DNA from: Cherax quadricarinatus
Taxonomy: Eukaryota; Arthropoda; Malacostraca; Decapoda; Parastacidae
Direction of reading: 5' to 3'
NCBI RefSeq assembly: GCF_038502225.1
Contig: NC_091325.1
Coordinates: 28,114,380-28,178,379 of the forward strand
DNA length: 64,000 nt
Shown here: positions 27,831 through 59,377 of the stretch, piece by piece
How positions within the stretch are numbered: position 1 is the first letter of the stretch
How the letters are laid out: each line of letters opens with the position of its first letter
Notes under the pieces: generated by a model
The model's input: only the letters and a program-made list of their open reading frames with translations
What the model was told of the DNA's origin: nothing
Databases searched by the model: none
Position numbers and translations under genes: made by a program

Positions 27831-28228
27831 AATGGTATATAATACCGACAAGATGAAATTAAGACACATGTGCAACATCTGGGTATCTTTATTGTAGACG
27901 TTTCGCCATCCAGTGGCTTTATCAATACAAATTCTAGGACATAACTTGAAGACAGTAGAACTATATACAGAAGATGAGGTAATCAGTCCCTCAACCTAGG
28001 AGTAGGTGCGAAGAGCACCATAGTCGTGGAGATTCTGAAGCAGAAGAAAGTAGCCTGGTGCTTATATAGTAACGTCAGGTGTAGCAGACGAGGGCATAGT
28101 CACTGGTAGGCGGGATTCCCCAGTGCAAGTAGGTCCTTCCGAAGAGATGGGTTAGTTGTAGTAGTAGTTGTCGTAGCCGTGAATGTTATGTACATGTCCT
28201 CAAGCGTTCTCTAAATTTAAATGTGGAT
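27831..28228 (-). mobile_element. Non-coding Penelope/retrozyme-like repeat, family 3, single unit
   Basis: The plus-strand left end AATGGTATATAATACCGACA nearly matches the terminus of the Penelope-like element at 35427-35446 (AATGGTATAAAATACCGACA). A hammerhead-like motif on the minus strand follows at 27886-27935. The body shares GAGGTAATCAGTCCCTCAACCT with the 371-bp units at 52.2-54.6 kb but is otherwise diverged. No coding content. Confidence 0.7.
27886..27935 (-). ncRNA. Hammerhead-ribozyme-like motif, family 3
   Basis: Minus strand, in order: stem I 5' side UUGUA; core UUGAUAA; an extra A; stem II GCCA-CUGGA-UGGC; GAAA; ACGU (A15.1, C15.2, G16.2, U16.1 with no loop); C at the cleavage position; stem I 3' side UACAA. 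Stem I forms five Watson-Crick pairs. Relative to the consensus CUGAUGA, positions C3 and G8 are U and A, which can still pair. Stem III has no loop, so cis folding is doubtful and dimeric cleavage, as described for Penelope hammerheads, would be required. Confidence 0.7.
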
Positions 28229-29410
28229 AAACTTGGAACATAAGAAAGAACACTGCAGCAGACCTACTGGTCCGTTGATTAAAACCACTGGTTGGCCAAA
28301 CATCTACAATAAAGTTGCCCAGATGTTGCACGTGTCTCTAATTTTCATCTAGTCGGTTTTGTATACCATCCATGTACTACTGGCCCATGTTATGTAGGTC
28401 CAACTCAAACCCACTCATGTACTTGTCTAACCTATTTATAAAGCTACACAAGGTTGTCGCTTCAATGACGGTACTCGGGAGTTTGTTCCACTCATCAACA
28501 ACTATTTCCACACCAGTGTTTTCTAACATCCTTTCCAACTCTAAGTTGTTCCATTTTGAACCCACTGATGCGAATCTTGTCTTGGTTTGATATTTTTAGC
28601 ACGTTATTTACATCCCCTTCGTTAATTCCTGTTTTGCATTTATAAAACGTCGATCGTTTCCCTAATTCTACGTCTTTCTAGAGAGTGCAGATTCAGGGCC
28701 CTCAGTCTATCCTCGTAGGGAAGATTTCTTATATATGGGATCAACTTAATCATCCTTCGCTGTACGTTTTTCAGCGCATTTATGTCCATTCTGTAATACG
28801 GTGACCAAAACTGAGCAGAATAATCCGAGGCCTAAGGAAAGATATATAGTTACAGTATAACCTGGGCTCTCCTGTTAGTTATACTTCTTGATACGAAGCC
28901 AAGAATTATATTCGCCTTATTGCGAGCACTTCCTCACTGTTGTCATGACTTTAGATTACTGTTAACCAGAACTAACTTTTTACATTCTGGGATATTACTA
29001 CCTACATTATTTAACTTATAAGTGAATTGATTATTTTCTTGCATAGAACATTCAAGTGCATCTGTCACTTCCCCAACCATTGCATCAGTCTGTTCAGATC
29101 TTCCTGCAGTGTTTTCACCAGAATTAATCCGACGGCCTATTTTGGTGTTCTCGGCAAGCTTGCTTATGTTGCTGCTTATCCCTCATCTATGTCGTTTAAG
29201 TATACTGTGAATAACAAAGGGGCCAACACAGATCCCTGTGGAACACCGCTTGTGACGCATCCCCACTCTGATTTCTCCCCATTTAAGCAAACTCAGTTGC
29301 TTGTCTCTCAACCACTCCTCTGTCCAGAAAAAAAAACTCTCCAGTGTTTTACTGCTTTCCTCAATCTCCAGTGTGGAACTGAAGGTTTAGTCAACCCTGT
29401 CAGTCCTTAA
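28229..29410 (-). mobile_element. CR1-clade LINE fragment, copy F (ORF2 3' part), decayed
   Basis: The reverse complement starts (3' end) with the CR1 tail GTTCTTTCTTATGTTC at 28229-28244 and reads backwards through the C-terminal region (VDEWNKLPSTVIEATTLCSF near 28480; the peptide YRMDINALKNVQRRM near 28770-28800) to the RT block GVPQGSVLA near 29230-29260. The frame is broken repeatedly. It is interrupted at 28274-28376 by a small hammerhead repeat. Homology fades between 29340 and 29410. Confidence 0.8.
28274..28376 (+). mobile_element. 103-bp hammerhead-repeat fragment inserted in CR1 F
   Basis: Flanked by CTACTGGTCC (28264-28273) and CTACTGGCCC (28377-28386), a 10-bp target duplication with one difference; the sequence is part of the CR1 3' UTR. 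The insert carries a decayed family-3 motif (UUGAUUA, ACCA/UGGC-like stem II, AUCUACAA) and ends in CGGTTTTGTATACC, the inverse of the left end of the repeat at 27831. The two lie in opposite orientation about 350 bp apart. Confidence 0.7.
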
Positions 29411-29618
29411 GTAAGCATTTGACAAGGCTGGCTCCTCTTTATGAAAAAAAAGTATTGAAAAAATAACATTGCATAAACAATTTTATAATATTAATTCAGG
29501 CAATAATATAAAACAGTTAGACATGAAATTAAGCCTAATTTAAGAAAAATGAAGAAGGAAATATATAAATAACAAGCTATCCAAAGCTAATTTATATATA
29601 GATGTTGAGTATAGAATA
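29411..29618. other. AT-rich segment upstream of CR1 copy G
   Basis: No coding content. It may include the 5' UTR of CR1 copy G. I cannot place the element's 5' end because the other copies are truncated further in. Confidence 0.4.
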
Positions 29619-30269
29619 ATGTGCCGATGTTCTGGACAGAGCTTTGAATGCTTCTTGGAACTCAAAGCCGTTGATAATGAGGGGGAGGATGAATGTACTT
29701 CAGTGGCCAGTGAAGGTAAGGGTACTACTGCCCCTGCTAATGAAGGTAAGCGCATTCTTGTGGTTGGTGACTCTCAGGTAAGATATGTTGATCGTGCTTT
29801 TTGTAATAGGAATAAGAAGATGAGAGATAGAGTGTGCTTCCCTGGAGCTGGTGTTGGGGACATTGTCAACAGACTGGATAATATCATGTCAGGTAATGGG
29901 AACAAGCCCATTATCTGTCTCAGTGCTGGTGGAAATGATATTGGGAAGGGTAGGAGAGAAGAGCTGCTAGATAAGTACAGGTCAGCTATAGATTTCATTA
30001 AGTCTAAGGGAGGGATCCCAATCATATGTAGCATCTTGCCTAGAAGGGGAGTAGGAAATGAATGGTTGTCTAGGGCAATTGGTGTAAATTGCTGGCTAGA
30101 CAGATACTGCAAGGAACTTGCAATCCCATTCATTGACAACTGGAACAACTTTTATGGCAAACATGATATGTATGCAAGGGATGGGGTTCATCTCTCTGGG
30201 GCAGGGGTGGTAGCACTTGCAGACTCGATTGAGAAGGCCATTGGTGAAATGCCTATGATTTTAAACTGA
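29619..30269 (+). CDS. CR1 ORF1: SGNH/GDSL esterase-like protein, 216 aa
   Basis: The ATG at 29619 is the first in this frame. After an acidic N-terminus (residues 17-42) comes ILVVGDSQVRYVDR with the SGNH nucleophile Ser52 in GDS, then GAGVGDIV (76-83), the block III GGND (104-107), and the C-terminal catalytic pair Asp188/His191 in ARDGVHLSG. This is the complete residue set of an SGNH hydrolase. Esterase-type ORF1 proteins are established for CR1 and L2 LINEs, where a role in membrane or RNP interaction is proposed but not settled. No zinc finger or RRM is present, and an N-terminal extension may be missing. Its stop overlaps the ORF2 start. Confidence 0.85.
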   Translation: MCRCSGQSFECFLELKAVDNEGEDECTSVASEGKGTTAPANEGKRILVVGDSQVRYVDRAFCNRNKKMRDRVCFPGAGVGDIVNRLDNIMSGNGNKPIICLSAGGNDIGKGRREELLDKYRSAIDFIKSKGGIPIICSILPRRGVGNEWLSRAIGVNCWLDRYCKELAIPFIDNWNNFYGKHDMYARDGVHLSGAGVVALADSIEKAIGEMPMILN

Positions 30270-33214
30270 TGGAAGATAGAGGTATGGGTGTGTGTGGGAA
30301 ACAAGCAGGTTGCAACACTAGGGTTGGAAACAGTAAATGTATAAAAGGCATTCAGCATGAAGTTATAAATAAAGACAATAGAACAGGTCAGCAAACAAAG
30401 GGGGACAGCAGAGGGCAGCAAGGGAGTAGCTCCCTTAAGGTTTACTATACTAATAGCAGGAGTGTTAGAAATAAGATAGATGAGCTAAGATTAATTGCAA
30501 GTGCAGGAAACATAGATATTATTGCTATAACAGAGACCTGGCTCAATCTGAAAGATAGAGAGATGCCCTCTGAATGTCACATACAAGGCTATAAATTATT
30601 CCACACTGACAGGGTCAACAGGAAAGGTGGTGGAGTAGCGATGTATGTCAGAGACAATTTAAATTGTTGTGTTAGACAAGATATTAAATTAGAAGCGTCA
30701 GCCACTGAATCTGTTTGGTTACAGCTTCTCGAGGGCCGAGAAAAACTAATTTTGGGTGTGATTTACAGGGCCCCAAATCTTGATAGGGAGTGCAGTAAAC
30801 TTCTATGGGACGAAATTCGTAAGGCATCTACATACGAAAATGTTGTGCTAATGGGAGATTTCAACTATAGACAGATTGACTGGAGCAATTTGACAGGAAA
30901 TTTAGAGTCGGGTGACTTTCTTGATACGATCCAGGATTGTTTTTTAAAACAGTTTGTGACAGAGCCAACTAGGGGAAATAACCTCCTTGACTTGGTTCTT
31001 GCCAGTAGGGAAACACTAATTAATAATCTTGAGGTTAATGATGAGCTTGGGGAGAGTGATCACAAATCACTCAGTTTTAACATAGCATGGAATTCCCCTA
31101 ATAATGGCAATCAAGTCTCCGTCCCTGACTTTCGCTTGGCTGATTTCATAGGACTGAAAAATTACTTAGGTGGGCTGAACTGGAATGACCTGACTAGGGG
31201 TCAGGTAGGTGGTGATGGTTGCCGATATGATGCTTTCCAGGGCATAGTTCTAGCTGCTCAGTCAAATTATGTTCCAAATAGGGAAATCAGATCAAACAAA
31301 AATGATCCTAAATGGATGAACAATAGATTAAAATATCTGATTGGTCAAAAGAGAGGCATATATAGGCAAATCAAAAGAGGAGAGGGGCAATTAAGAAATC
31401 GATATATTCAGTTAAAGAGAGAAATAAAAAAGGGAATTAGAAAAGCAAATAGAGATTATGAGGTTAAAGTTGCAAGAGAATCGAAGACTAACCCAAAAGG
31501 ATTCTTTCAGGTATACAGAAGTAAGATCAGGGACAAGATAGGCCCACTCAAAAGTTCCTCGGGTCAGCTCACTGACAGTGATAAGGAAATGTGTAGAATT
31601 TTTAACACATACTTCCTCTCAGTTTTTACACAGGAGGATACCAGCGATATTCCAGTAATGATAAATTATGTAGAACAGGACGATAATAAACTGTGCACTA
31701 TTAGGGTCACAAGTGACATGGTCCTTAGGCAAATAGATAAATTAAAACCTAACAAATCCCCAGGCCCTGATGAACTGTATGCAAGGGTTCTAAAGGAATG
31801 TAAAGAGGAGCTTAGCACACCTTTGGCTAATCTTTTCAACATATCACTACAAACTGGCATGGTGCCAGATAAGTGGAAAATGGCAAATGTGATACCTATT
31901 TTCAAAACAGGTGACAGGTCCTTAGCTTCGAACTATAGACCAATAAGCCTAACCTCCATAGTGGGAAAATTTATGGAATCAATAATTGCCGAGGCAGTTC
32001 GTAGCCACCTTGAAAAGCATAAATTAATCAACGAATCTCAGCATGGTTTTACAAAGGGGCGTTCCTGCCTTACGAATTTATTAACTTTTTTCACTAAGGT
32101 ATTTGAGGAGGTAGATCATGGTAATGAATATGATATTGTGTATATGGACTTCAGTAAGGCTTTTGACAGGGTCCCACATCAGAGACTATTGAGGAAAATT
32201 AAAGCACATGGAATAGGAGGAGAAATTTTTTCCTGGATAGAGGCATGGTTGACAAATAGGCAGCAGAGAGTTTGCATAAATGGGGAGAAATCAGAGTGGG
32301 GAAGCGTCACGAGCGGTGTTCCACAGGGGTCAGTGTTGGGCCCCCTGCTGTTCACAATCTACATAAACGACATAGATGAGGGCATAAAGAGCGACATCGG
32401 CAAGTTTGCCGATGACACCAAAATAGGCCGTCGAATTCATTCTGACGAGGACATTCGAGCACTCCAGGAGGATTTGAATAGACTGATGCAGTGGTCGGAG
32501 AAGTGGCAGATGCAGTTTAATATAGACAAATGCAAAGTTCTAAATGTTGGACAGGACAATAACCATGCCACATATAAACTAAATAATGTAGATCTTAATA
32601 TTACGGATTGCGAAAAAGATTTAGGAGTTCTGGTTAGCAGTAATCTGAAACCAAGACAACAGTGCATAAGTGTTCGCAATAAAGCTAATAGAATCCTTGG
32701 CTTCATATCAAGAAGCATAAATAATAGGAGTCCTCAGGTTGTTCTTCAACTCTATACATCCTTGGTTAGGCCTCATTTAGATTATGCTGCACAGTTTTGG
32801 TCACCGTATTACAGAATGGATATAAATTCTCTGGAAAATGTACAAAGGAGGATGACAAAGATGATCCCATGTATCAGAAACCTTCCCTATGAGGATAGAC
32901 TAAGGGCCCTGAAACTGCACTCTCTAGAAAGACGTAGAATGAGGGGGGATATGATTGAGGTTTATAAGTGGAAGACAGGAATAAATAAAGGGGATGTAAA
33001 TAGTGTGCTGAAAATATCTAGCCTAGACAGGACTCGCAGCAATGGTTTTAAGTTGGAAAAATTCAGATTCAGGAGGGATATAGGAAAGTACTGGTTTGGT
33101 AATAGAGTTGTGGATGAGTGGAACAAACTCCCAAGTACCGTTATAGAGGCCAGAACGTTGTGTAGCTTTAAAAATAGGTTGGATAAATACATGAGTAGAT
33201 GTGGGTGGGTGTGA
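30269..33214 (+). CDS. CR1 ORF2: APE endonuclease-reverse transcriptase, 981 aa
   Basis: Endonuclease at about residues 50-270: YYTNSRSVRNKIDEL, ITETWLNLKDR (catalytic Glu near 91), GDFNYRQIDW (about 196), and SDH (about 262). RT at about 480-800: NKSPGPDELYARVLKECK, NYRPISLTSIVGKFMESII, QHGFTKGRSCLTNLL, YMDFSKAFDRVPHQ (about 624), GVPQGSVLGPLLF and the catalytic FADDTK (about 712). A C-terminal region typical of CR1 (LDYAAQFWSPYYR, VDEWNKLPSTVIEA) follows. The length fits CR1 ORF2. The ATG overlaps the ORF1 stop as TGATG, so translation by termination-reinitiation is likely. The protein would perform target-primed reverse transcription in the nucleus. Confidence 0.92.
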   Translation: MEDRGMGVCGKQAGCNTRVGNSKCIKGIQHEVINKDNRTGQQTKGDSRGQQGSSSLKVYYTNSRSVRNKIDELRLIASAGNIDIIAITETWLNLKDREMPSECHIQGYKLFHTDRVNRKGGGVAMYVRDNLNCCVRQDIKLEASATESVWLQLLEGREKLILGVIYRAPNLDRECSKLLWDEIRKASTYENVVLMGDFNYRQIDWSNLTGNLESGDFLDTIQDCFLKQFVTEPTRGNNLLDLVLASRETLINNLEVNDELGESDHKSLSFNIAWNSPNNGNQVSVPDFRLADFIGLKNYLGGLNWNDLTRGQVGGDGCRYDAFQGIVLAAQSNYVPNREIRSNKNDPKWMNNRLKYLIGQKRGIYRQIKRGEGQLRNRYIQLKREIKKGIRKANRDYEVKVARESKTNPKGFFQVYRSKIRDKIGPLKSSSGQLTDSDKEMCRIFNTYFLSVFTQEDTSDIPVMINYVEQDDNKLCTIRVTSDMVLRQIDKLKPNKSPGPDELYARVLKECKEELSTPLANLFNISLQTGMVPDKWKMANVIPIFKTGDRSLASNYRPISLTSIVGKFMESIIAEAVRSHLEKHKLINESQHGFTKGRSCLTNLLTFFTKVFEEVDHGNEYDIVYMDFSKAFDRVPHQRLLRKIKAHGIGGEIFSWIEAWLTNRQQRVCINGEKSEWGSVTSGVPQGSVLGPLLFTIYINDIDEGIKSDIGKFADDTKIGRRIHSDEDIRALQEDLNRLMQWSEKWQMQFNIDKCKVLNVGQDNNHATYKLNNVDLNITDCEKDLGVLVSSNLKPRQQCISVRNKANRILGFISRSINNRSPQVVLQLYTSLVRPHLDYAAQFWSPYYRMDINSLENVQRRMTKMIPCIRNLPYEDRLRALKLHSLERRRMRGDMIEVYKWKTGINKGDVNSVLKISSLDRTRSNGFKLEKFRFRRDIGKYWFGNRVVDEWNKLPSTVIEARTLCSFKNRLDKYMSRCGWV

Positions 33215-33363
33215 GTTGGACCTGATAGCTTGTGCTAACAGGTCGGTTGCCGTGTTCCTCCCTTAAGTCAATGTGACCTGACCTGACTAGGTTGGGTGCA
33301 TTGGCTTAAGCCGGTAGGGACTTGGACCTGCCTCGCATGGGCCAGTAGGCCTTCTGCAGTGTT

Positions 33364-33393: not shown

Positions 33394-33394
33394 T

Positions 33395-34890: not shown

Positions 34891-35405
<515 letters not shown>

Positions 35406-35482
35406 CATAGCGAAGTCTTGGAAATAAATGGTATAAAATACCGACACAATGGCAATATAAACACAAATGCAGTATAATGTGA

Positions 35483-35534
35483 TCCTTTATTGACTACGTT
35501 TCGCCCACACAGTGGGCTTTTTCAAGTCACAAAC
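35483..35534 (-). ncRNA. Hammerhead-ribozyme-like motif, family 2 (left copy)
   Basis: Minus strand: stem I UGAC; core UUGAAAA; extra A; stem II GCCCAC-UGU-GUGGGC; GAAA; ACGU; A at the cleavage position; stem I partner GUCA. Identical to the right-end copy at 39541. Core positions 3 and 8 are U and A. Activity is uncertain. Confidence 0.6.
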
Positions 35535-35698: not shown

Positions 35699-37146
35699 TT
35701 ATGTGGGATAGCGATGAAGAAGTTTCTTGGCAAGTGGTTCAGCTATGTTATAGAAGCCACTATTCTGGTTGAAGTTGTCGGATATAGAAATAAGTGATGA
35801 TTCCAGGATTCTTCGGTATTGGGTGTTGTCTTCTGTGGCGATAAGTCTTGAGTTTCTGTAGTTTATCAAGTGGTTGTGTGAATTACGGTGTTGTACGCAG
35901 GCATTCCTTGTGTCGTCAGACCTGCTTGCGTATTGGTGTTCTGAAATACGTGTTTGGAGGTCCCTTGATGTTTCGCCCACGTATAACTTGTTGCAGTCAT
36001 TACAAGGGATTATGTATACCCCTGCAGAGGATGGAGGCTTGTCCTGCCTACTACTGGTGATGTCCTTGATGGTCGTGGTTGTGGAGGTAGATACTTGGAA
36101 TGATGTTTTGGCAAAGATGTTGGAAACATGTTTGGCAATGGAGTTGGTGGGAAGGACTATGTATCTCTTCTCGGCAGTGTCTTCTCTGGGTGTGTTGAAG
36201 ATGTTTAGTGCTCGCCGTCTGCAGTCTCTGATGAAGTGACGAGGATAGTGGAGTTTGGAAAATACCTGTTCAATTATAGTGCATTCTTCCTCAAGGAACT
36301 CGTTGCTGCAGATTCTGAGTGCACGCAGGAAGAAGCCTATAATTACACCACGTTTGGTTTTGGTGTCGTGGTGAGAGTAGAAGTGGAGAAGATCGTTTTG
36401 GTTGGTGGGTTTTCGATAGACTTTAAAACGAAGTTCGTGGTCAGCTTTGCAGATTAGAACATCAAGGAAAGGAAGAGTGTTGTCGACCTCTTCTTCAAGT
36501 GTGAACTGGATTGAAGGTTCGACCTGGTTGAGCTTGTCTTGGAGAGCTTGAACGTTGAAGCGTTTAGGAGTTATGAGGAGAATGTCGTCAACATAACGGA
36601 GCCAGGTGACAGACGAAGGAATAATGGTGGAGAAACGTTCGGCTTCTAGATGTTCCATGTATAGGTTCGCTAGGACTGCACTGAGTGGCGAACCCATGGG
36701 TAGTCCAAAAGTCTGCTGAAAGAGGTGATTTTCAAAAGAGAAACACGTAAAGCCAACACATAGTTCAACCAGGTCGATGAAGTCGCTGGCTGGAATGGGA
36801 AGATCAAGTGAATCGTCAATTTTCTTGCGCAAGAGATCGATGGCTTGTTTAGTAGGTACTTTAGTGAATAGGGAAGTCACGTCAAGGCTGGAAAGTTTCT
36901 TGTTCCTGATGTTGATGTTGCGAATGCGATTGAGAAGATCACCTGAGTGTTTGAGATGTGCTGGACTGATAGTGCCCAAGAGTTTCGATAGGTGTTTGGC
37001 GAGAATTCCTGAGAGCTTGTGGGGAGCACTGCCTATTCCCGAGGATATGGGCCTCAGTGGGATACCAGACTTGTGAGTCTTTGGCAGGCCGTACATTCTG
37101 GCAGGTCTGGGGTTGCTGGGCATGGTGTGCAGAAGTTTCTTCCCTT
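35699..37146 (-). pseudogene. Penelope RT/GIY-YIG gene, inverted 5'-truncated copy
   Basis: The minus-strand frame ends at 35699 and matches the plus copy from EQGKKLLHTMPSNPRPA onward. It keeps YVDD and the GIY-YIG domain but lacks about the first 270 residues. Codons before SEGKKLLH derive from the antisense of the other copy across the junction near 37146. Differences from the plus copy include Ser for Pro in THKPGIP and Asp for Gly in KKIDGSLD. It cannot encode a full enzyme. Confidence 0.88.
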
Positions 37147-39374
37147 CACTTCGCAACAGACACAATTTTCTTCGTGACTGCATCCAAGAAATGGTCTTAC
37201 CAAGATCTACTCCTCCTCAAATTGCCAACATCAAACCACCTTTCTCCGCTACAGCTCGGACCTACCTTGAAGAGTGTGCAGATGACTTAAACAATGCTAC
37301 AAAGGAAGCTTTTCTCCAAGCCAGAACACTAGGCACAACACTCCGGGGCAACATGAACAGACGCACCGCCGAAATCATTCGCAGCAGAGTTACCACAGCG
37401 AATGTTCAACAGAAGATCAGACTTACTAAGAAACTACAAACACTCTGCGATAATAGTAATTGGAAAAGTTTAGGAAGACCTGAAATTATTCAAAATCTTT
37501 CATCTCGTCCACTGTCAACCACAGAAACTGAAGCCCTCAGCTTAGGCCTCAAATTCGCAACAGGAATTACGAAACCAAAACAAGACCTCAATTTCATCGC
37601 CAAAAACTACAGACACAATGACTCCGACTTCCAAAAAGGCTATCTTCAAGGCATCATCTCAGCAGCCATCTCAACACGCAGCTCCCCAGTCATACCCCGA
37701 CGTTACATCAATGCACTCAAAGGTTTAGCAGAAGACACGACCATCAGGGTCACCACCGCTGATAAAGGAGGTGGTGTTGTTATCATGAACACTGACGATT
37801 ACAGGAACAAAATGCTCAATCTACTTAATGACCCAGATACCTACAAACCTCTCACAACTAACCAAGTGGACAACCTTACTAAAACTTTTCTTCAAAGGAC
37901 TCGCCGCATTCTGAGGAGCTCAGAACAAGGGAAGAAACTTCTGCACACCATGCCCAGCAACCCCAGACCTGCCAGAATGTACGGCCTGCCAAAGACTCAC
38001 AAGCCTGGTATCCCACTGAGGCCCATATCCTCGGGAATAGGCAGTGCTCCCCACAAGCTCTCAGGAATTCTCGCCAAACACCTATCGAAACTCTTGGGCA
38101 CTATCAGTCCAGCACATCTCAAACACTCAGGTGATCTTCTCAATCGCATTCGCAACATCAACATCAGGAACAAGAAACTTTCCAGCCTTGACGTGACTTC
38201 CCTATTCACTAAAGTACCTACTAAACAAGCCATCGATCTCTTGCGCAAGAAAATTGACGGTTCACTTGATCTTCCCATTCCAGCCAGCGACTTCATCGAC
38301 CTGGTTGAACTATGTGTTGGCTTTACGTGTTTCTCTTTTGAAAATCACCTCTTTCAGCAGACTTTTGGACTACCCATGGGTTCGCCACTCAGTGCAGTCC
38401 TAGCGAACCTATACATGGAACATCTAGAAGCCGAACGTTTCTCCACCATTATTCCTTCGTCTGTCACCTGGCTCCGTTATGTTGACGACATTCTCCTCAT
38501 AACTCCTAAACGCTTCAACGTTCAAGCTCTCCAAGACAAGCTCAACCAGGTCGAACCTTCAATCCAGTTCACACTTGAAGAAGAGGTCGACAACACTCTT
38601 CCTTTCCTTGATGTTCTAATCTGCAAAGCTGACCACGAACTTCGTTTTAAAGTCTATCGAAAACCCACCAACCAAAACGATCTTCTCCACTTCTACTCTC
38701 ACCACGACACCAAAACCAAACGTGGTGTAATTATAGGCTTCTTCCTGCGTGCACTCAGAATCTGCAGCAACGAGTTCCTTGAGGAAGAATGCACTATAAC
38801 TGAACAGGTATTTTCCAAACTCCACTATCCTCGTCACTTCATCAGAGACTGCAGACGGCGAGCACTAAACATCTTCAACACACCCAGAGAAGACACTGCC
38901 GAGAAGAGATACATAGTCCTTCCCACCAACTCCATTGCCAAACATGTTTCCAACATCTTTGCCAAAACATCATTCCAAGTATCTACCTCCACAACCACGA
39001 CCATCAAGGACATCACCAGTAGTAGGCAGGACAAGCCTCCATCCTCTGCAGGGGTATACATAATCCCTTGTAATGACTGCAACAAGTTATACGTGGGCGA
39101 AACATCAAGGGACCTCCAAACACGTATTTCAGAACACCAATACGCAAGCAGGTCTGACGACACAAGGAATGCCTGCGTACAACACCGTAATTCACACAAC
39201 CACTTGATAAACTACAGAAACTCAAGACTTATCGCCACAGAAGACAACACCCAATACCGAAGAATCCTGGAATCATCACTTATTTCTATATCCGACAACT
39301 TCAACCAGAATAGTGGCTTCTATAACATAGCTGAACCACTTGCCAAGAAACTTCTTCATCGCTATCCCACATAA
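37122..39374 (+). CDS. Penelope-like Pol: reverse transcriptase with GIY-YIG endonuclease, about 750 aa
   Basis: The frame is open to the stop at 39372-39374. The first ATG in frame is at 37122. The first ten or so codons lie in the inverted copy, so the native start is probably lost and this start is chimeric. N-terminal helical region LRNRHNFLRDCIQEM, then ADKGGGVVIMNTDDY (about 220), RMYGLPKTHKPGIPLRPI, SLDVTSLFTKVPTKQAI, LPMGSPLSAVLANLYME, and catalytic RYVDDILLI (about 455). At the C-terminus is a GIY-YIG nuclease with GVYIIPCNDCNKLYVGET (about 643-660) and RISEHQ. Telomerase-related RT. If expressed it could mobilise itself and hammerhead repeats. Confidence 0.9.
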   Translation: MVCRSFFPSLRNRHNFLRDCIQEMVLPRSTPPQIANIKPPFSATARTYLEECADDLNNATKEAFLQARTLGTTLRGNMNRRTAEIIRSRVTTANVQQKIRLTKKLQTLCDNSNWKSLGRPEIIQNLSSRPLSTTETEALSLGLKFATGITKPKQDLNFIAKNYRHNDSDFQKGYLQGIISAAISTRSSPVIPRRYINALKGLAEDTTIRVTTADKGGGVVIMNTDDYRNKMLNLLNDPDTYKPLTTNQVDNLTKTFLQRTRRILRSSEQGKKLLHTMPSNPRPARMYGLPKTHKPGIPLRPISSGIGSAPHKLSGILAKHLSKLLGTISPAHLKHSGDLLNRIRNINIRNKKLSSLDVTSLFTKVPTKQAIDLLRKKIDGSLDLPIPASDFIDLVELCVGFTCFSFENHLFQQTFGLPMGSPLSAVLANLYMEHLEAERFSTIIPSSVTWLRYVDDILLITPKRFNVQALQDKLNQVEPSIQFTLEEEVDNTLPFLDVLICKADHELRFKVYRKPTNQNDLLHFYSHHDTKTKRGVIIGFFLRALRICSNEFLEEECTITEQVFSKLHYPRHFIRDCRRRALNIFNTPREDTAEKRYIVLPTNSIAKHVSNIFAKTSFQVSTSTTTTIKDITSSRQDKPPSSAGVYIIPCNDCNKLYVGETSRDLQTRISEHQYASRSDDTRNACVQHRNSHNHLINYRNSRLIATEDNTQYRRILESSLISISDNFNQNSGFYNIAEPLAKKLLHRYPT

Positions 39375-39540
39375 GAACACTGTAGAAGGTCTGCTCACAA
39401 ACTTGTCCAGTCTCCTTTCCAAGCTACCCAAGTTTTTAGACTCTACAACCCAACTCGGTACATCATCAGATGCAGCATTCTTCACCTGACCTCAGCCGGA
39501 CTATAAATACTCGCGTTCCTTCCACCCCAGGTAGTTCTGT

Positions 39541-39590
39541 TTGTGACTTGAAAAAGCCCACTGTGTGGGCGAAACGTAGTCAATAAAGGA
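39541..39590 (+). ncRNA. Hammerhead-ribozyme-like motif, family 2 (right copy)
   Basis: Same elements as 35483-35534 on the plus strand, 30-40 bases before the right terminus of the Penelope element. The position near the 3' end fits the terminal repeats in which Penelope hammerheads are known. AATAAAGG follows directly and could double as a polyadenylation signal. Confidence 0.6.
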
Positions 39591-39636
39591 TCACATTATA
39601 CTGCATTTGTGTTTATATTGCCATAGCGAAGTCTTG

Positions 39637-39929: not shown

Positions 39930-40570
39930 GCTGCTAGTCAAGTGATTCCCCACAGGTCTGAGACGCTCACGTCAACTCCCACCAGGTGCAGAAGGGGGGA
40001 GATAATGGGAGCTAGTCACCCACCCTACCTAAACAAGCAGACTGCCCTACATACAGAAGGGGGGGGTAATAGTGGGAGCTGGTCACCTACCCTGCCTAAG
40101 CAAGCAGATTGCCCCACACACAGAAGGGGGGGTGATAGCGGGAGCTAGTCACCCACCCTACCTAAACAAGCAGACTGCCCCACACACAGAAGGGGGGTGA
40201 CAGCGGGAGCTGGTCACCTACCCTACCTAAACAAGCAGACTGGCCCACACACAGAAGGGGATGGGGGATAGTGGAAGCTAGTCACCCACCCTACCTAAAC
40301 AAGCACACTGCCCCTATACGCAGAAGGGGGGGATAGCGATAGCTAGTCACCCACCCATATCTAAACAAGCACACTGCCCCTATGCACAGAAGGGGGGATA
40401 GCGATAGCTAGTCACCCACCCTACCTAAACAAGCACACTGCCCCTATACACAGAAGGGGGGATAGCGATAGCTAGTCACCCACCCTACCTAAACAAGCAC
40501 ACTGCCCCTATACACAGAAGGGGGGATAGCGATAGCTAGTCACCCACCCTACCTAAACAAGCAGACTTCC
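39930..40570. repeat. 60-64-bp satellite, about 10 units
   Basis: Unit starts GCTAGTCACCCACCCTACC, then AAACAAGCA(C/G)ACTGCCCC and AGAAGGGGGG. Later units at 40407, 40471 and 40535 have a 64-bp period; the first units are slightly shorter. One diverged unit occurs inverted at 21510-21560. Confidence 0.92.
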
Positions 40571-40640
40571 CCACACACTACCACCAACATACATTCATAC
40601 TTTCATTATTCCTATCTACTGAACTTTTCCCTCACAGGAA
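40571..40640. other. Edge of the dispersed repeat shared with 21445-21560
   Basis: CTGAACTTTTCCCTCACAGG matches the inverse of 21445-21465. Confidence 0.5.
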
Positions 40641-46077: not shown

Positions 46078-46084
46078 TAAAGGG

Positions 46085-46773: not shown

Positions 46774-49700
46774 TTATTTTTTATTTTATTAGCACACTGG
46801 CCGAATCCCACCAAGGCAGGGTGGCCCGAAAAAGAAAAACTTTCACCATCATTCACTCCATCACTGTCTTGCCAGAAGGGTGCTTTACACTACAGTTTTT
46901 AAACTGTAACATTAACACCCCTCCTTCACAGTGCAGGCACTGTACTTCCCATCTCCAGGACTCAAGTCCAGCCTTCCAATTTCCCTGAACCCCTTTATAA
47001 ATGTTACTTTGCTCACACTCCAACAGCACGTCAAGTATTAAAAACCATTTGTCTCCATTCACTCCTATCAAACACACTCACCCATGCCCGCTGGAAGTCC
47101 AAGCCCCTCTCACACAAAACCTCCTTTACCCCCTCCCTCCAAGTTTTCCTAGGCCGACCCCTACCCGGCCTTCCTTCCACTACAGACTGATACACTCTTG
47201 AAGTCATTCTGTTTCGCTCCATTCTCTCTACATGTCCGAACCACCTCAACAACCCTTCCTCAGCCCTCTGGACAACAGTTTTGGTAATCCTGCCCCATCC
47301 TCCTAACTTCCAAACTACGAATTCTCTGCATTATATTCGCGCCACACATTGCCCTCAGACATGACATCACTGCCTCCAGCCTTCTCCTCGCTGCAACATT
47401 CATCACCCATGCTTCACACCCATATAAGAGCATTTGTAAAACTATACTCTCATACATTCCCCTCTTTGCCTCCAAGGACAAAGTTCTTTGTCTCCACAGA
47501 CTCCTAAGTGCACCGCTCACCCTTTTCCCCTCCTCAATTCTATGATTCACCTCATCTTTCGTAGACCCATCCACTGACACGTCCATTCCCAAATATCTGA
47601 ATACATTCACCTCCTCCATACTCTCTCCCTCCAATCTGATATCCAATCTTTCATCACCTAATCTTTTTGTTATCCTCATTACCTTACTCTTTCCTGTATT
47701 CACTTTTAATTTTCTTCTTTTACATACCCTACCAAATTCATCCACCAACCTCTGCAACTTCTCTTCAGAATCTCCCAAGAGCACAGTGTCATTAGCAAAG
47801 AGCAACTGTGACAACTCCCACTTTATGTGTGATTCTTTATCTTTTAACTCCACGCCTCTTGCCAAAGACCCTCGTATTTACTTCTTTTACAACCCCATCT
47901 ATATATATATTAAACAACCATGGTGACATCACACATCTTTGTGTAAGGCCTACTTTTACTGGGAAATAATCTCCCTCTTTCCTACATACTCTAACTTGAG
48001 CCTCACTATCCTCGTTAAAAACTCTTCACTGCTTTCAGTAACCTACCTCCTATACCATACACCTGCAATATCTGCCACATTGCCCCCCTATCCACCCTGT
48101 CATACGCCTTTTCCAAATCCATAAATGCCACAAAAACCTCTTTAGCCTTATCTATATATACACTGTATACACCTGGTCCACACACCCCCTACCTTTCCTA
48201 AAGCCTCCTTGTTCATCTGCTATCCTATTCTCCATCTTACTCTTAATTCTTTCAATAATAACTCTACCATACACTTTACCAGGTATACTCAACAGACTTA
48301 TCCCCCTATAATTTTTGCACTCTCTTTTGTCCCCTTTGCCTTTATACAAAGGAACTATGCATGCTCTCTGCCAATCCCTAGGTACCTTACCCTCTTCCAT
48401 ACATTTATTAAATAATAGCACCAACCACTCCAAAACTATATCCCCACCTGCTTTTAACATTTCTATATTTATCCCATCAATCCCGGCTGCCTTACCCCCT
48501 TTCATTTTACCCACTGCCTCACGAACTTCCCCCACACTCACCACTGGCTCTTCCTCACTCCTACAAGATGTTATTCCTCCTTACCCTATACATTAAATCA
48601 CAGCTTCCCTATCTTCATCAACATTTAACAATTCATCAAAATATTCCCTCCATCTTCCCAATACCTCTAACTCTCCATTTAATAACTCTCCTCTCCTATT
48701 TTTAACTGACAAATCCATTTGTTCTCAAGGCTTCCTCAACTTGTTAATCTCACTCCAAAACTTTTTCTTATTTTCAACAAAATTTGTTGATAACATCTCA
48801 CCCACTCTCTCATTTGCTCTCCTTTTACCTTGCTTCACCACTCTCTTAACCTCTCTCTTTTTCTCCATATACTCTTCCCTCCTTGCATCACTTCTACTTT
48901 GTAAAAACTTCTCATATGTTAACTTTTTCTCCCTTACTACTCTCTTTACATCATCATTCCCCCAATCGCTCCTCTTCCCTCCCGCACCCAGTTTCCTGTA
49001 ACCACAAACTTCTGCTGAACACTAACACTACATTTTTAAACCTACGCCATACCTCTTCGACCCCATTGCCTATGCTCTCATTAGCCCATCTATCCTCCAA
49101 TAGCTGTTTATATCTTACCCTAACTGCCTCCTCTTTTAGTTTATAAACCTTCACCTCTCTCTTCCCTGATGCTTCTTTTCTCCTTGTATCCCATCTACCT
49201 TTTACTCTCAGTGTAGCTACAACTAAAAAGTGATCTGATATATCTGTGGCCCCTCTATAAACATGTACATCCTGAAGTCTACTCAACAGTCTTTTATCTA
49301 CTAATACATAATCGAACAAACTACTGTCATTTCGCCCTACATCATATCTTGTATACTTATTTATCCTCTTTTTCTTAAAATATGTATTACCTATAACTAA
49401 ACCCCTTTCTATACAAAGTTCAATCAAAGGGCTTCCATTATCATTTACACCTGGCACCCCAAACTTACCTACCACACCCTCTCTAAAAGTTTCTCATACT
49501 TCAGCATTCAGGTCCCCTACCACAATTACTCTCTCACTTGGTTCAAAGGTTCCTATACATTCACTTAACATCTCCCAAAATCTCTCTCTCTCCTCTACAT
49601 TCCTCTCTTCTCCAGGTGCACACACGCTTATTATGACCCACTTTTCGCATCCAACCTTTACTTTAATCCACATAATCCTTGAATTTACACATTCATATTC

Positions 49701-50341
49701 TCTTTCCTCCTTCCATAACTGATCCTTCAACATTACTGCTACCCCTTCCTTTGCTTTAACTCTCTCAGATACTCCAGATTTAATCCCATTTATTTCCCCC
49801 CCACTTAAACTCCCCTACCCCTTTCAGCTTTGTTTTGCTTAGGGCCAGGACATCCAACTTCTTTTCATTCATAACAACAGCAATCATCAGTTTCTTGTCA
49901 TCCGCACTACATCCACACACATTCAAGCATCCCAGTTTTATAAAGTTTTTCTTCCCATTTTTTAGTAAATGTTTACAGGAGAAGGGGTTACTAGCCCATT
50001 GCTCCCGGCATTTTAGTCGCCTCATACGACACGCATGGCTTAAGGAGGAAAGATTCTTTTCCACTTCCCCATGGACAATAGACGAAAATAAAGAAGAACA
50101 AGAGCTATTTAGAAAAAGGAGAAAAACCTAGATGTATGTATATATATATGCATGTGCGTGTCTGTGAAGTGTGACCAAAGTGTAAGTAGGAGTAGCAAGA
50201 TATCCCTGTTATCTAGCGTGTTTATGAGACAGAAAGAGACACCAGCAATCCTTCCAACAGTTACAGCTTTCTGTTTCACAGTCATCTGGCAGGACGGTAG
50301 TACTTCCCTGGGTGGTTGCTGTCTACCAACTTACTACCTAC
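46774..50341 (-). mobile_element. RTE-type LINE, apparently full length, inserted in gypsy integrase
   Basis: Bounded by ATTATACCT on both sides (46765-46773 and 50342-50350), a 9-bp target duplication. The minus-strand 5' end GTAGGTAGTAAGTTGGTAG lies directly at the boundary and the 3' end CTAATAAAATAAAAAATAAA at the other, so both termini are present. About 3.57 kb with an endonuclease and RT in order. Several frame breaks make it inactive. I recall both termini as those of an abundant decapod repeat, unverified. Confidence 0.85.
47031..50064 (-). pseudogene. RTE-type ORF: APE endonuclease and reverse transcriptase (broken)
   Basis: Endonuclease pieces: LGCLNVCGCSADDKKLM, LDVLALSKTKLKG (catalytic Glu of the ETK motif is lost, SKTK), VISVCAPGEERNVEE, VVGDLNAEV and DYVLVDKRLLSRLQDVHVY with ISDHFLV (SDH). 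RT pieces: AAGIDGINIEMLKAGG, NYRGISLLSIPGKVYGRVII, QGGFRKGRGCVDQVYT, and LLFANDTVLLGDSEEKL, where FADD has become FAND. C-terminal block WFGHVERMERNRM with GRPGRGRPRKTW is characteristic of RTE-like proteins. Non-functional. Confidence 0.85.
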
Positions 50342-50946
50342 ATTATACCTAACCTAGTTAATGCTTCCCTAAATGCTTTGGCAGTGAACTTAGTATCTTG
50401 ATCACTTTGAATAGATTTAGGAATGCCAAAACAAGAAATAAATCTGGTTAAAACTTTGAGAATAGCTTTAGTATTAATACTGCGCATGGGAATTGTTTCA
50501 GTGTATCTAGTTACTCTATCAATAATGGTAAATAAATCCTGATTTCCAGACTTTGACCTAGGTAGTGGACCTACACAGTCTATGATTAATTCTGCAAAAG
50601 GTTCTCCATCAGCAGGTATAGGGTGGAGAGGTGCTGGTTCAATAGAATGTCCAGGTTTCCCTACTTGCTGACATTCTCGGCAACATCGGTTATGATTCAT
50701 CACATCCTGCTTTATTTTTGGCCAATAAATTTTTTTTGTGATTCTATATAATGTTTAAGTAATTCCTAAGTGACCTCCTAATGAAGTATTATGAGCTATA
50801 TTCAATATTTGAGGCCTAAACTTTGTTGGAACTACTAACCTGTCTGACAGTTGCCGGCCCTCTATCTTCTTACCAGTCTCAGTGCAGAACAAATAGTCGT
50901 TTTTAAGTTTATACTTGACCGGATGATCCGAAAAGGATTTACCCAT
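50342..50946 (-). pseudogene. Gypsy integrase, zinc finger and catalytic core N-terminal part
   Basis: LVVPTKFRPQILNIAHNTSLGGHLGIT gives the His-His half of the HHCC finger, and NRCCRECQQVGKPGH the Cys-Cys half after a frameshift near 50750. The core has FAELIIDCVGPLPRSKSG (first Asp), SIQSDQDTKFT (second Asp) and stops at RLGIM where the RTE element entered. Joined to 46773 the frame reads on as GIIHNLST. Confidence 0.88.
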
Positions 50947-50981
50947 GGCTGCCTGAAAAGCGAAATTTAAAGAAGGGTCCC

Positions 50982-51640
50982 TTATTGTTCCTCCCGGAAG
51001 GACAGTCCCTCGGGCATGAAAACACAGATATCTGGCAACCCTGCAACCTTGGAATATGAAGGCTTGATCTGGGTCTGTTCATTTGATCTACGAGGCCCTG
51101 GCCAGTTTTCCTCGTAAAACAAATAGGCTATTCCTAGATCGGAGTCGTCCAAGGATAAGTCAACATTCTCGCCAGACAACCCTTGGGATGTTGCCCGAGT
51201 TATGGCCAACACCGGAGAAAAATTAATAATTATGGGTTCAGGACATACATTAACCGGGGTAATGTTATTACCCAGTAATAACATGGCATATTTCATGGGG
51301 AATCCCTCGGATACACCCAGTCAAGTATCCAGTGTAATATTTGTACTGTACATAAATTCTATGCAAGGGGACAGAATATACAGCCCCTCCAAATGCTTCA
51401 AGCAAAACAGAGGAGTTTAATGCTGTTTCAGTTTTACCAGTTCCTCTTCTAATCTCTGTATCTTAGCCTCTGCTGTTCTGACAGGCATCTCCCCCTTCTT
51501 GGTTTCTGCATCTGTCCTCTCCTCCATTCTCATGCTAAGCTTTTTTAGCATCTTTCCCCACTCATGTTCCCTTTTCATGAGCTTTGCTGCCTAATCTTCC
51601 TTCGCAGGCTCATCTTGCATTACCCTGATTTTCCTTCCTG
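50982..51640 (-). pseudogene. Gypsy Gag remnant and protease/linker region
   Basis: A coiled-coil-like stretch EWGKMLKKLSMRMEERTDA with AKIQRLEEELVKLKQ (51600-51425) ends at a stop. The next part reads MKYAMLLLGNNITPVNVCPE and SPVLAITRATSQG, which resembles the end of an aspartic protease (LLGND-type) followed by the linker to integrase. The active-site DTG may be present just upstream (DTGYLTG at about 51330) in another frame. Low certainty on limits. Confidence 0.55.
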
Positions 51641-51719
51641 CTCTCTGGCACCCCATTTTGTTGTTTTGGTTGCCACAGAAAGAAAAACGTATGTAATTCT
51701 GTATGTTTGTTTTGTGGTG

Positions 51720-51981
51720 TGTTTGTCCGAGTGTGGGGGGGGCGACGGGGGGGAGAGGAGGAAGCTATCGATGTGAGAGCGGGGGGGGAAGGGGGAATGA
51801 CGAGAGAGGAGGAGGGAGAACCATAGGAGGAGAGAGAATGGGAGAGGGAGAGGGGGAAAGAGGGAGAGAATGGTGAGAAGGAGGGTGAAAGAGAGAGAGG
51901 GGGCATCAGGGAGATAGGTGGGGGAGGGTGTGAGGGGGAGAGAGTGTGTGTGTCTGTATATGTATGAATGTGTGGGTATAA

Positions 51982-52064
<83 letters not shown>
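51720..52064. repeat. Purine-rich tract and (TG)n microsatellite
   Basis: G/A-rich repeats (GGGAGAGGGAGAGGGGG type) at 51720-51960 lead into about 41 TG units at 51983-52064. LINE K's 3' end abuts the TG tract. Minus-strand His-Thr frames are artefacts. Confidence 0.95.
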
Positions 52065-52067
<3 letters not shown>

Positions 52068-52290
52068 CTGTACTCACCTAGTTGTGGTTGCAGGGGTCTA
52101 TTCATAGCTCCTGTCCCCGCCTCTTCACTGGCCGCTACTGGATTACTCTCCCTGCACAATGAGCTTTATCATACCTCTGCTTAAAGATATGTATGGATCC
52201 TGCCTCCACTACATTGCTTTTGTAGATGAATGGTTCAGAGAACCGACATGTTGATAAATTAGACACATATGCAACTCTTGGGTATCTTTA

Positions 52291-52330
52291 TTGAGGAAAC
52301 GTTTCGCCACACAGTGGCTTCATCAGTCCA
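52291..52330 (-). ncRNA. Hammerhead-like motif, family 1, unit 1
   Basis: Stem I GGA, core CUGAUGA, extra A, stem II GCCAC-UGU-GUGGC, GAAA, ACGU, U at the cleavage position, stem I partner UCC. Outer pairing UUG/CAA after an internal loop. All core positions match the consensus. Confidence 0.75.
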
Positions 52331-52661
52331 TACAAAGGAGAATCTTGAAGAACAGGAGGAGAATGAGGTAATCAGTCCCTCAACCTTGAGTCGATGTGGT
52401 CAGTCCATCAATATTGAATAGAATACGGCATACGTGCTGAGAAGGAGCTTATAAACCGTTGGCAGGAGAGGTGCAGAAGTCATAGGTCGTGTAACATTTG
52501 TTCAATGTTGAAGTAGGTCGTGCCCAAGAATTAGGCAAGCGAAGAATTCCCAAGTATTAAGATCCCAAGAAGTTGCAGTGTCTGACAGGTTTGTAGATGA
52601 ATGGTTCAGAGAACCGACATGTTGATAAATTAGACACATATGCAACTCTTGGGTATCTTTA

Positions 52662-52701
52662 TTGAGGAAACGTTTCGCCACACAGTGGTTTCATCAGTCC
52701 A
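52662..52701 (-). ncRNA. Hammerhead-like motif, family 1, unit 2 (stem II mutation)
   Basis: As unit 1, but the first stem II base is A instead of G (AACCACUGUGUGGC), losing one pair next to the core. Confidence 0.7.
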
Positions 52702-53007
52702 TACAAAGGAGAATCTTGAAGAACAGGAGGAGAATGAGGTAATCAGTCCCTCAACCTTGAGTCGATGTGGTCAGTCCATCAATCTTGAATAGAATACGGC
52801 ATACGTGCTGAGAAGGAGCTTATAAACCGTTGGCAGGAGAGGTGCAGAAGTCATAGGTCGTGTAACATTTGTTCAATGTTGAAGTAGGTCGTGCCCAAGA
52901 ATTAGGCAAGCGAAGAATTCCCAAGTATTAAGATCCCAAGAAGTTGCAGAGTCTGACAGGTTTGTAGATTGATAAATTAGACACATGCAACTCTTGGGTA
53001 TCTTTAT

Positions 53008-53047
53008 TGAGGAAACGTTTTGCCACACAGTGGCTTCATCAGTCCAT
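53008..53047 (-). ncRNA. Hammerhead-like motif, family 1, unit 3 (core mutation)
   Basis: GAAA after stem II reads AAAA (GGCAAAAC). G12, the general base of the hammerhead, is lost, so this unit should not cleave. Confidence 0.7.
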
Positions 53048-53430
53048 ACAAAGGAGAATCTTGAAGAACAGGAGGAGAATGAGGTAATCAGTCCCTCAAC
53101 CTTGAGTCGATGTGGTCAGTCCATCAATCTTGAATAGAATACGGCATACGTGCTGAGAAGGAGCTTATAAACCGTTGGCAGGAGAGGTGCAGAAGTCATA
53201 GGTCGTGTAACATTTGTTCAATGTTGAAGTAGGTCGTGCCCAAGAATTAGGTAAGCGAAGAATTCCCAAGTATTAAGATCCCAAGAAGTTGCAGTGTCTG
53301 ACAGGTTTGTAGATTGATAAATTAGACACATATGCAACTCTTCTATTCAAGATTGATGGACTGACCACATCGACTCAAGGTTGAGGGACTGATTACCTCA
53401 TTCTCCTCCTGTTCTTCAAGATTCTCCTCT

Positions 53431-53470
53431 GTATGGACTGATGAAGCCACTGTGTGGCGAAACGTTTCCT
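53431..53470 (+). ncRNA. Hammerhead-like motif, family 1, unit 4
   Basis: Consensus core and stem II; upstream CTCTGTATGGA instead of CTTTGTATGGA changes only the outer part of stem I. Confidence 0.75.
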
Positions 53471-53801
53471 CAATAAAGATACCCAAGAGTTGCATATGTG
53501 TCTAATTTATCAACATGTCGGTTCTCTGAACCATTCATCTACAAACCTGTCAGACACTACAACTTCTTGGGATCTTAATACTTGGGAATTCTTCGCTTGC
53601 CTAATTCTTGGGCACGACCTACTTCAACATTGAACAAATGTTACACGACCTATGACTTCTGCACCTCTCCTGCCAACGGTTTATAAGCTCCTTCTCAGCA
53701 CGTATGCCGTATTCTATTCAAGACTGATGGACTGACCACATCGACTCAAGGTTGAGGGACTGATTACCTCATTCTCCTCCTGTTCTTCAAGATTCTCCTT
53801 T

Positions 53802-53841
53802 GTATGGACTGATGAAGCCACTGTGTGGCGAAACGTTTCCT
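53802..53841 (+). ncRNA. Hammerhead-like motif, family 1, unit 5
   Basis: Consensus copy, 371 bp from units 4 and 6. Two consecutive units with intact motifs would release a 371-nt monomer. Confidence 0.75.
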
Positions 53842-54172
53842 CAATAAAGATACCCAAGAGTTGCATATGTGTCTAATTTATCAACATGTCGGTTCTCTGA
53901 ACCATTCATCTACAAACCTGTCAGACACTGCAACTTCTTGGGATCTTAATACTTGGGAATTCTTCGCTTGCCTAATTCTTGGGCACGACCTACTTCAACA
54001 TTGAACAAATGTTACACGACCTATGACTTCTGCACCTCTCCTGCCAACGGTTTATAAGCTCCTTCTCAGCACGTATGCCGTATTCTATTCAAGATTGATG
54101 GACTGACCACATCGACTCAAGGTTGAGGGACTGATTACCTCATTCTCCTCCTGTTCTTCAAGATTCTCCTTT

Positions 54173-54212
54173 GTATGGACTGATGAAGCCACTGTGTGGC
54201 GAAACGTTTCCT
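54173..54212 (+). ncRNA. Hammerhead-like motif, family 1, unit 6
   Basis: Consensus copy. Confidence 0.75.
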
Positions 54213-54543
54213 CAATAAAGATACCCAAGAGTTGCATATGTGTCTAATTTATCAACATGTCGGTTCTCTGAACCATTCATCTACAAACCTGTCAGACACT
54301 GCAACTTCTTGGGATCTTAATACTTGGGAATTCTTCGCTTGCCTAATTCTTGGGCACGACCTACTTCAACATTGAACAAATGTTACACGACCTATGACTT
54401 CTGCACCTCTCCTGCCAACGGTTTATAAGCTCCTTCTCAGCACGTATGCCGTATTCTATTCAAGATTGATGGACTGACCACATCGACTCAAGGTTGAGGG
54501 ACTGATTACCTCATTCTCCTCCTGTTCTTCAAGATTCTCCTTT

Positions 54544-54583
54544 GTATGGACTGATGAAGCCACTGTGTGGCGAAACGTTTCCT
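54544..54583 (+). ncRNA. Hammerhead-like motif, family 1, unit 7
   Basis: Consensus copy in the last, 3'-truncated unit. Confidence 0.75.
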
Positions 54584-59371: not shown

Positions 59372-59377
59372 GTATGT

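Follow-up and report, generated by a model that had tools for sequence, protein, structure and literature searches.

We describe a 64,000-nucleotide stretch of the genome of the crayfish Cherax quadricarinatus (contig NC_091325.1, positions 28,114,380 to 28,178,379; hereafter the window), which carries three families of hammerhead-ribozyme-like repeats, one of them within a Penelope-like element (PLE). We consider it probable (roughly 0.83) that all three families are minimal type I hammerheads, with a 2-bp stem III formed by the palindrome ACGU, of a PLE and of its non-coding derivatives, the latter moved in trans by the PLE protein. PLE hammerheads, covariation of U3 and A8 in the core, PLE tails and inverted pseudo-long terminal repeats (pLTRs) are already known; new here are the copy number in one genome and the PLE insertion marks on repeats that lack an open reading frame (ORF). 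The hammerhead reading is well supported by sequence comparison, and the insertion evidence is the most useful part of the analysis: insertion ends in this genome provide a direct, countable test of what moves animal retrozymes.

The window was scanned with a descriptor consisting of stem I (at least 3 bp), YUGAHRA, zero or one extra base, stem II (at least 4 bp), GAAACGU, H and the closing strand of stem I. The scan found eight intact motifs (five of family 1, two of family 2 and one of family 3), against none in 100 first-order Markov simulations, which confirms the shared layout seen in the initial annotation of this DNA. A looser descriptor, still requiring GAAACGT, found no additional motifs in the window. 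The eight motifs are as follows.

27892..27930, minus strand: family-3 hammerhead motif, intact, with a U3/A8 core
35491..35529, minus strand: family-2 hammerhead motif, 3' of the ORF in the left PLE copy
39544..39582, plus strand: family-2 hammerhead motif, 3' of the ORF in the right PLE copy
52295..52329, minus strand: family-1 hammerhead motif, intact, in the left half of the array
53435..53469, plus strand: family-1 hammerhead motif
53806..53840, plus strand: family-1 hammerhead motif
54177..54211, plus strand: family-1 hammerhead motif
54548..54582, plus strand: family-1 hammerhead motif

Two further family-1 copies on the minus strand, at 52670 and 53015, are damaged (two of the seven motifs of the window array). 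The family-3 motif is made up of UUGUA / UUGAUAA / A / GCCA-CUGGA-UGGC / GAAACGU / C / UACAA, and the variable core position 7 is A in family 2 (UUGAAAA). The motifs have the core of a minimal PLE-kind type I hammerhead, (C/U)3 UGANR A9, G12 A13 A14, A15.1-U16.1 and H17, of which all letters other than H17 were set by the search patterns. The window motifs have U, A or C at H17, and no G occurs there among the 51 distinct motifs listed, so the earlier statement that the cleavage base is never G holds. In family 1, stem I has 3-5 bp and is open-ended, loop II is UGU, and no canonical loop was seen by inspection, made without a contact model. The RNAs would self-cleave, probably as dimers paired through ACGU and perhaps with the assistance of a protein.

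Families 1 and 3 align over 197 bp, motif and flanks included, at about 73% identity, and are therefore branches of one lineage, and the genome holds at least two motif types beyond families 1-3. Three lineages, as proposed initially, is thus too high a number for the window, where two of them are related, and too low for the genome. The extra A after the core and the U3/A8 cores, which had been singled out as departures from the textbook consensus, are both present but less novel than implied. An extra nucleotide in the conserved hammerhead core, after A9, was reportedly described by De la Pena and Flores in 2001 in the viroid CChMVd; the likeness is the extra base, and the viroid hammerhead is said to be full-size. 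Natural U3/A8 covariation has been reported as well (PMC3088659).

The Rfam hammerhead models, suggested initially as a detector, did not serve as one: across the window nothing reached the gathering score, no hammerhead came up in 27000-55000 even when E values up to 10 were allowed, and RF00008 found none in the genome, the same search giving none in control genomes either. Because minimal variants have been reported without helix III (PMC7761336, PMC6155905), this leaves the assignment to minimal hammerheads possible. Folding of the bare motifs gave mixed support (z of -1.84 for family 1, -3.69 for family 2 and -1.16 for family 3) and has no discriminating power, since such models cover neither the 3-8 pair nor a stem III of 2 bp. 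AATAAA is found within a few nucleotides after the hammerhead in each family examined (alignment A2, below; window 39544-39590) and may be a poly(A) signal or part of a reverse transcriptase (RT) site.

We searched the 3.95-Gb genome with a strict pattern, YTGAHRAAGCCN{3,14}GGCGAAACGT, in which ACGT, the extra A and the base of stem II (as GCC/GGC) are fixed. There were 149,966 exact matches (74,807 + 75,159), about one per 26 kb, and none to the reversed-pattern control. Core positions 3 and 8, C-G in family 1 and U-A in families 2 and 3 as initially described, are C3G8 in 109,641 matches, U3A8 in 36,255, C3A8 in 2,623 and U3G8 in 1,447 (the last by subtraction); they are paired in 97.3% of the motifs, against 62.0% if independent, a figure that does not count independent events because the families share ancestry. 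At the 3-8 core pair, the families of this genome are thereby a large natural collection of compensatory changes. The start of the tail, a stretch following the hammerhead, was searched for as GTCGG 36-62 nt after GGCGAAACGT and occurs in 90,050 places (15 for the reversed control).

Covariation was tested by shuffling on a sample of 119 motifs, reduced to 79 by leaving out 40 from loci chosen for a C3/A8 core and then to 24 distinct motifs. None of 5,000 shuffles came up to the score of pairs 2 and 3 in stem I, of pairs 4 and 5 in stem II or of the 3-8 pair, and 19 of them reached that of stem I pair 1. Stem II pair 6 gave no signal, and the base of stem II is uninformative because the search pattern fixes it. 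In a second alignment (A2; 19 distinct hammerhead-plus-tail sequences, C3/A8 loci left out) 96.7% of cells pair, 7 of the 15 pairs change on both sides, and the covariation score is 0.313, compared with 0.092 after shuffling and at most 0.055 after sliding. The tail holds a hairpin that also co-varies (GGUUC/GAACC, GGUAU/AUACC, GGUUU/AAACC) and accounts for 2 of the 7 doubly changed pairs. Stems I and II are kept by compensatory change among the genomic copies, and the changes first read from the window in stem I, stem II and the 3-8 pair hold up on them.

These results bear on the possibility that the motif is a protein-binding or RT-recognition hairpin that merely looks like a hammerhead and does not cleave at all. 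Against it stand the conservation of core positions outside the helices, the covariation of the 3-8 pair and the lack of G at H17 among the 51 distinct motifs; small variants are moreover said to cleave as dimers (Lunse and colleagues, 2017). A hairpin of this kind would fit a stem III of just 2 bp, and the precedent of PAc, the Penelope protein of Anolis, whose hammerhead RNA is cleaved only with protein and whose cleavage mutants still insert (PMC11167929). On balance we regard a non-cleaving hairpin as unlikely.

The association with Penelope proposed in the initial annotation proved to be direct. The family-2 motifs of the window adjoin an ORF that combines an RT (RVT_1, 1.5e-10) with a GIY-YIG endonuclease (1.8e-07), as in PLEs, and the surrounding DNA has the inverted pLTRs, the tail (optional in PLEs, about 30 bp) and the duplications by which such elements are recognised. 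The features of this insertion are as follows.

35406..35420, plus strand: left target-site duplication CATAGCGAAGTCTTG of the PLE insertion, 15 bp
35430..35446, minus strand: tail hairpin TGTCGGTATTTTATACC at the long end of the PLE insertion
35699..37183, minus strand: listed open frame of the left, 5'-truncated PLE copy, 494 aa as listed, with homology ending at about 37146
37113..39374, plus strand: listed open frame of the right PLE copy, 753 aa when started at TTG, matching RVT_1 and GIY-YIG
39501..39509, plus strand: TATA box CTATAAATA of the PLE pLTR, 46 nt before the core
39622..39636, plus strand: right target-site duplication CATAGCGAAGTCTTG of the PLE insertion, short end, no tail

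The region is one insertion with two inverted, head-to-head copies (37927-39624 against 37146-35449, 99.8% identical over 1,698 bp). An intact copy elsewhere in the genome (locus L083) begins with a leader of TATA box, hammerhead, tail and ATG (MDPSHREY...); this leader is absent from both window copies, and, compared by eye with L083, the right-copy frame is short of the intact ORF by roughly 16 residues at its start. Because both copies are 5'-truncated and without such a leader, the motifs at 35483 and 39541, taken initially for the two ends of one Penelope element, are instead the 3' motifs of two inverted copies. Motifs of the family-2 type do flank the ORF, 2,580 bp apart, in 8 of the 12 near-identical copies retrieved, and the upstream motif has a C3/A8 core in two of these 8 (L084, L089).

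A genome search with the family-2 protein gave 79,303 candidates, of which 61 were scored. All 61, the window copy included, are 99-100% identical and free of internal stops, and several are minus-plus neighbours; because they are all near-identical family 2, this search was unable to reveal other PLE subfamilies. Among the best 120 of 1,333 protein relatives, the closest named one is from C. quadricarinatus (54% over 61% of the query), and other named relatives come from Penaeus (two), Oratosquilla, Portunus and the tapeworm Spirometra.

The family-1 array of the window consists of non-coding tandem units with one type I hammerhead each; its longest listed ORF has 59 aa, and its unit of 371 bp lies within the range of retrozymes (about 150-450 bp). 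It is laid out as follows.

52208..52219, plus strand: left target-site duplication ACTACATTGCTT of the family-1 array, 12 bp
52220..53340, minus strand: left half of the array, three hammerhead units (one intact, two damaged)
53341..54625, plus strand: right half of the array, about 3.5 units of 371 bp, four motifs
54626..54637, plus strand: right target-site duplication ACTACATTGCTT of the array, short end, no tail

The right half has TATA boxes at 53680, 54051 and 54422 and begins 97 nt upstream of its first core, which places its start about 31 nt downstream of where the TATA box would lie by comparison with the following units. Tail hairpins of the left half lie at 52232-52248 and 52603-52619 and are missing at the two other unit junctions. 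These junctions, at 52961 and 53306, lack about 24-26 bp holding the whole hairpin (period 345 against 371 bp), as if the enzyme had skipped it.

The array, with its 12-bp duplication, and the window PLE, with its 15-bp duplication, have the same plan, with a tail at one outer end. Shared repeats of at least 12 bp occurred in 43 of 20,000 random placements at the distances of the window insertions. Among the first 100 places listed genome-wide, 43 neighbouring pairs lie within 600 bp; 26 of them are head-to-head (minus-then-plus), and the remainder are plus-minus (7), minus-minus (6) and plus-plus (4). A first set of 17 insertions comprised 14 chosen minus-plus pairs of one family and the three window insertions, for which the counted end lengths are offset by 1-4 nt; duplications were seen in this set, and 13 of the 17, including the window array and the window PLE, have a short end about 35-49 nt and a long end about 70-80 nt after ACGT. 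As a test set we then scored 20 closely spaced minus-plus pairs not used before, 16 taken from the strict-pattern listing and 4 from the U3A8 listing. An exact duplication of at least 11 bp was present in 15 of the 20; when left and right sides were mismatched, 1 of 380 pairings had one. Of the 15, L069 and L070 lie in repetitive target DNA. The scored ends of these 15 lie 39-47 and 72-87 nt after ACGT, the short end being the left one in 8 insertions and the right one in 7. In checks that do not depend on the duplications, exactly one arm carried a tail in 19 of the 20 insertions, and the two arms stopped agreeing 44-53 nt after ACGT in 18.

Since the ORF-less repeats share the insertion marks of PLEs (duplications, a tail at one end and head-to-head arms), the PLE machinery is, from genomic sequence, the most likely mover of these retrozyme-like repeats. 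The arrays could alternatively be ordinary satellite DNA spread by unequal crossing-over or slippage, with the hammerhead as a passenger and no part played by the PLE. The units are indeed tandem and nearly identical, another hammerhead family forms runs with 429-bp spacing (C1:4380429-4385347; 10 motif 3' parts in runs of four and six), and arrays may have grown after insertion. The window array, however, has its 12-bp duplication, two head-to-head halves and a tail at one outer end, like the PLE insertion; arrays L045 and L009 (C1:584548-585893) have the same kind of ends, and the stems co-vary. The 371-bp unit as plain satellite DNA was accordingly rejected as the sole origin on account of the insertion ends, and we consider the satellite explanation as a whole quite improbable. 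Movement of the non-autonomous families by another retrotransposon, a long interspersed nuclear element (LINE) or an LTR element, seems to us very improbable: inverted arms with a one-end tail match known PLE anatomy (a 31-bp tail at one inverted pLTR and a 9-bp duplication; PMC3846280), and the window PLE has the same anatomy. In favour of such a mover, LINEs have been named as an alternative (PMC7229834, PMC11722881), no search for similarity between the units and LINEs was made, and a helper for family 1 was not found among the retrieved loci.

The functional unit that these elements would share runs from a TATA box through the hammerhead, about 45 nt and an RT start site A to a tail hairpin stretch of about 30 nt and an RT start site B. 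The motif would lie in the 5' leader or pLTR of the PLE and of its short non-coding relatives. The autonomous family-2 element carries a hammerhead before and after the ORF for RT and GIY-YIG endonuclease; family 1, family 3 and further elements would have kept the unit without the ORF, with the PLE protein acting in trans. The motif and its covariation, the copy number, the anatomy of the insertions and the link to the ORF can be read directly from the sequence. We infer that the PLE protein nicks both strands of the target and primes on both, at A on one side and at B on the other, and that the two cDNAs, extended towards the 5' end of the RNA, are joined head-to-head. Dual priming and joining would account for the inverted arms, for the target-site duplication, which mostly measures 11-17 bp, and for the tail being confined to one end, and runs over multimeric RNA would yield tandem units. 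PAc is known to cleave and extend both DNA strands, its tail being the stretch between two RT start sites (PMC11167929). Mirror-image junctions occur in 6 of 31 pairs; self-priming on an antisense template, proposed for palindromes of the Adineta Penelope (PMC3846280), is a possible source of them.

If the usual template were hammerhead-cut RNA left linear, its copies should start at the cleavage site. Of 21,201 exact family-1 3' segments, 18,836 (88.8%) run through the cleavage site, and the remaining 11.2% mix mutation with possible truncation. RNA cut at the hammerhead and left linear is therefore not the usual template. The family-3 repeat of the window has the following features in addition to its motif.

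27834..27850, minus strand: family-3 tail hairpin TGTCGGTATTATATACC
28061..28069, minus strand: family-3 TATA box CTATATAAG; that of the relative L065 is 143 nt upstream of the core
28275..28369, plus strand: second, inverted, decayed family-3 arm (core at 28275), 85% identical to 27832-27925

In 4 of 10 family-3 pairs the arms are mirrored over about 107-110 nt with few mismatches and end 33-36 nt after the L065 TATA position. Together with the start of the plus half of the window array, these ends suggest run-off at the 5' end of a transcript, a post hoc reading; other arms end elsewhere. The run-off reading speaks to a variant of the PLE reading, which we hold open as a sizeable but lesser possibility, above all for family 1, in which rolling-circle reverse transcription uses RNA circles that the ribozyme has produced by cutting and ligating, and not linear multimers. 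Metazoan retrozymes accumulate as circles (PMC7229834), the 88.8% figure is compatible with circular templates because a ligated circle restores the cleavage site, and the arm lengths of family 1 show no clear common 5' end. The ends of the 4 family-3 pairs and the start of the plus half some 31 nt after the TATA position are, post hoc, what run-off and not a circle would give. In its fullest form, the PLE reading would make animal retrozymes of this kind reduced Penelope elements, retaining promoter, hammerhead and tail, whose uncleaved transcripts the PLE protein copies from both nicked strands at sites A and B, leaving one tail per pair; to this we give even odds. If true, a one-tail head-to-head rule readable from DNA alone would settle the mover of metazoan retrozymes.

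Several observations weigh against a PLE origin and movement of all these repeats. Among the retrieved loci we identified no autonomous element whose ORF has a family-1 motif next to it. PLE ORF pieces do lie near a family-2-like motif (L034) and another divergent motif (L019 region), and at L042 (31018744-31018771, minus) a family-1-like C3/A8 motif lies between PLE ORF pieces of both orientations; this motif may have been inserted into a PLE or may belong to the PLE itself. In the first set, the support for L057, one of the 13, comes down to 9 bp with a mismatch, that for L054 is weak and that for L003 and L005 ambiguous; family 3 of the window shows no duplication. In the test set, no convincing duplication was seen in five pairs (L061, L065, L067, L074 and L079); in L069 the right arm stays within the element for just 21 nt, and both arms of L065 are without a tail. 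As to covariation, stem I pair 4 pairs in 18 of the 24 distinct motifs, with no excess over shuffles; in A2 the number of further pair types was reached by 100 of 500 shuffles and that of doubly changed pairs by 3 of 500, the loop-proximal pair of stem II (columns 22-26) is unpaired in 7 of 18 cases, and the counts ignore shared ancestry. Finally, the published PAc data do not show that insertion requires cleavage (PMC11167929).

Among known systems, the closest are the minimal hammerheads of PLEs, which are reportedly described by Cervera and de la Pena (2014) and by Lunse and colleagues (2017). Their core, very short or missing stem III, location in pLTRs and likely action as dimers are the same as here (PMC7761336, PMC6155905). 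In contrast to them, as known from secondary descriptions, the motifs of the families named here always have an extra A following the core, which the search pattern requires, and number about 150,000 in one genome, many in short ORF-less pairs. With metazoan non-LTR retrozymes, which count 126,247 type I hammerheads in axolotl and of which retrozyme-like repeats are mentioned for crustaceans (PMC7229834), the present repeats share non-coding tandem units of a few hundred base pairs, one type I hammerhead in each and a very high copy number; our strict-pattern count exceeds that of axolotl, under different definitions. They differ in having what is probably a minimal PLE-type hammerhead, not a canonical one with loop contacts, as well as PLE insertion marks and a PLE-like unit tail. 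The Penelope elements of Adineta vaga and of Anolis (PAc) likewise have inverted head-to-head pLTRs, a 30-40 bp tail at one end, short duplications and a pLTR hammerhead (PMC3846280, PMC11167929). Here, by comparison, the tail stands on exactly one arm in nearly all test insertions (19 of 20), drawn from several families, the same plan recurs in ORF-less tandem arrays, and the tail holds a co-varying hairpin. PLEs have been called a strong but unproven candidate for the mover of retrozymes (PMC7229834), and a 2024 review names LINEs or PLEs as movers and proposes retrozymes to be reduced PLEs, its excerpt giving no insertion evidence (PMC11722881). The literature searched, whose scope excludes the supplements of PMC7229834 and the 2014 and 2017 primary papers, contained no insertion-level evidence for hammerhead tandem arrays moved by PLEs and no decapod hammerhead counts.

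Some minor observations complete the picture. Locus L066 (C1:1470020-1470820) represents a further divergent hammerhead family, with a stem II of GCCAC-UC-GUGGC, its own tail GGTATCACCATACC and a 14-bp duplication. At L016 (C1:589023-589439) and L089, hammerhead insertions lie near or inside insertions of different families, a possible source of relative dating. The window also contains other tandem arrays, at 13551-14810 (36-bp units), 25916-26473 (22 bp), 26592-27077 (22 bp), 39989-40578 (64/133 bp) and 58887-59382 (28 bp).

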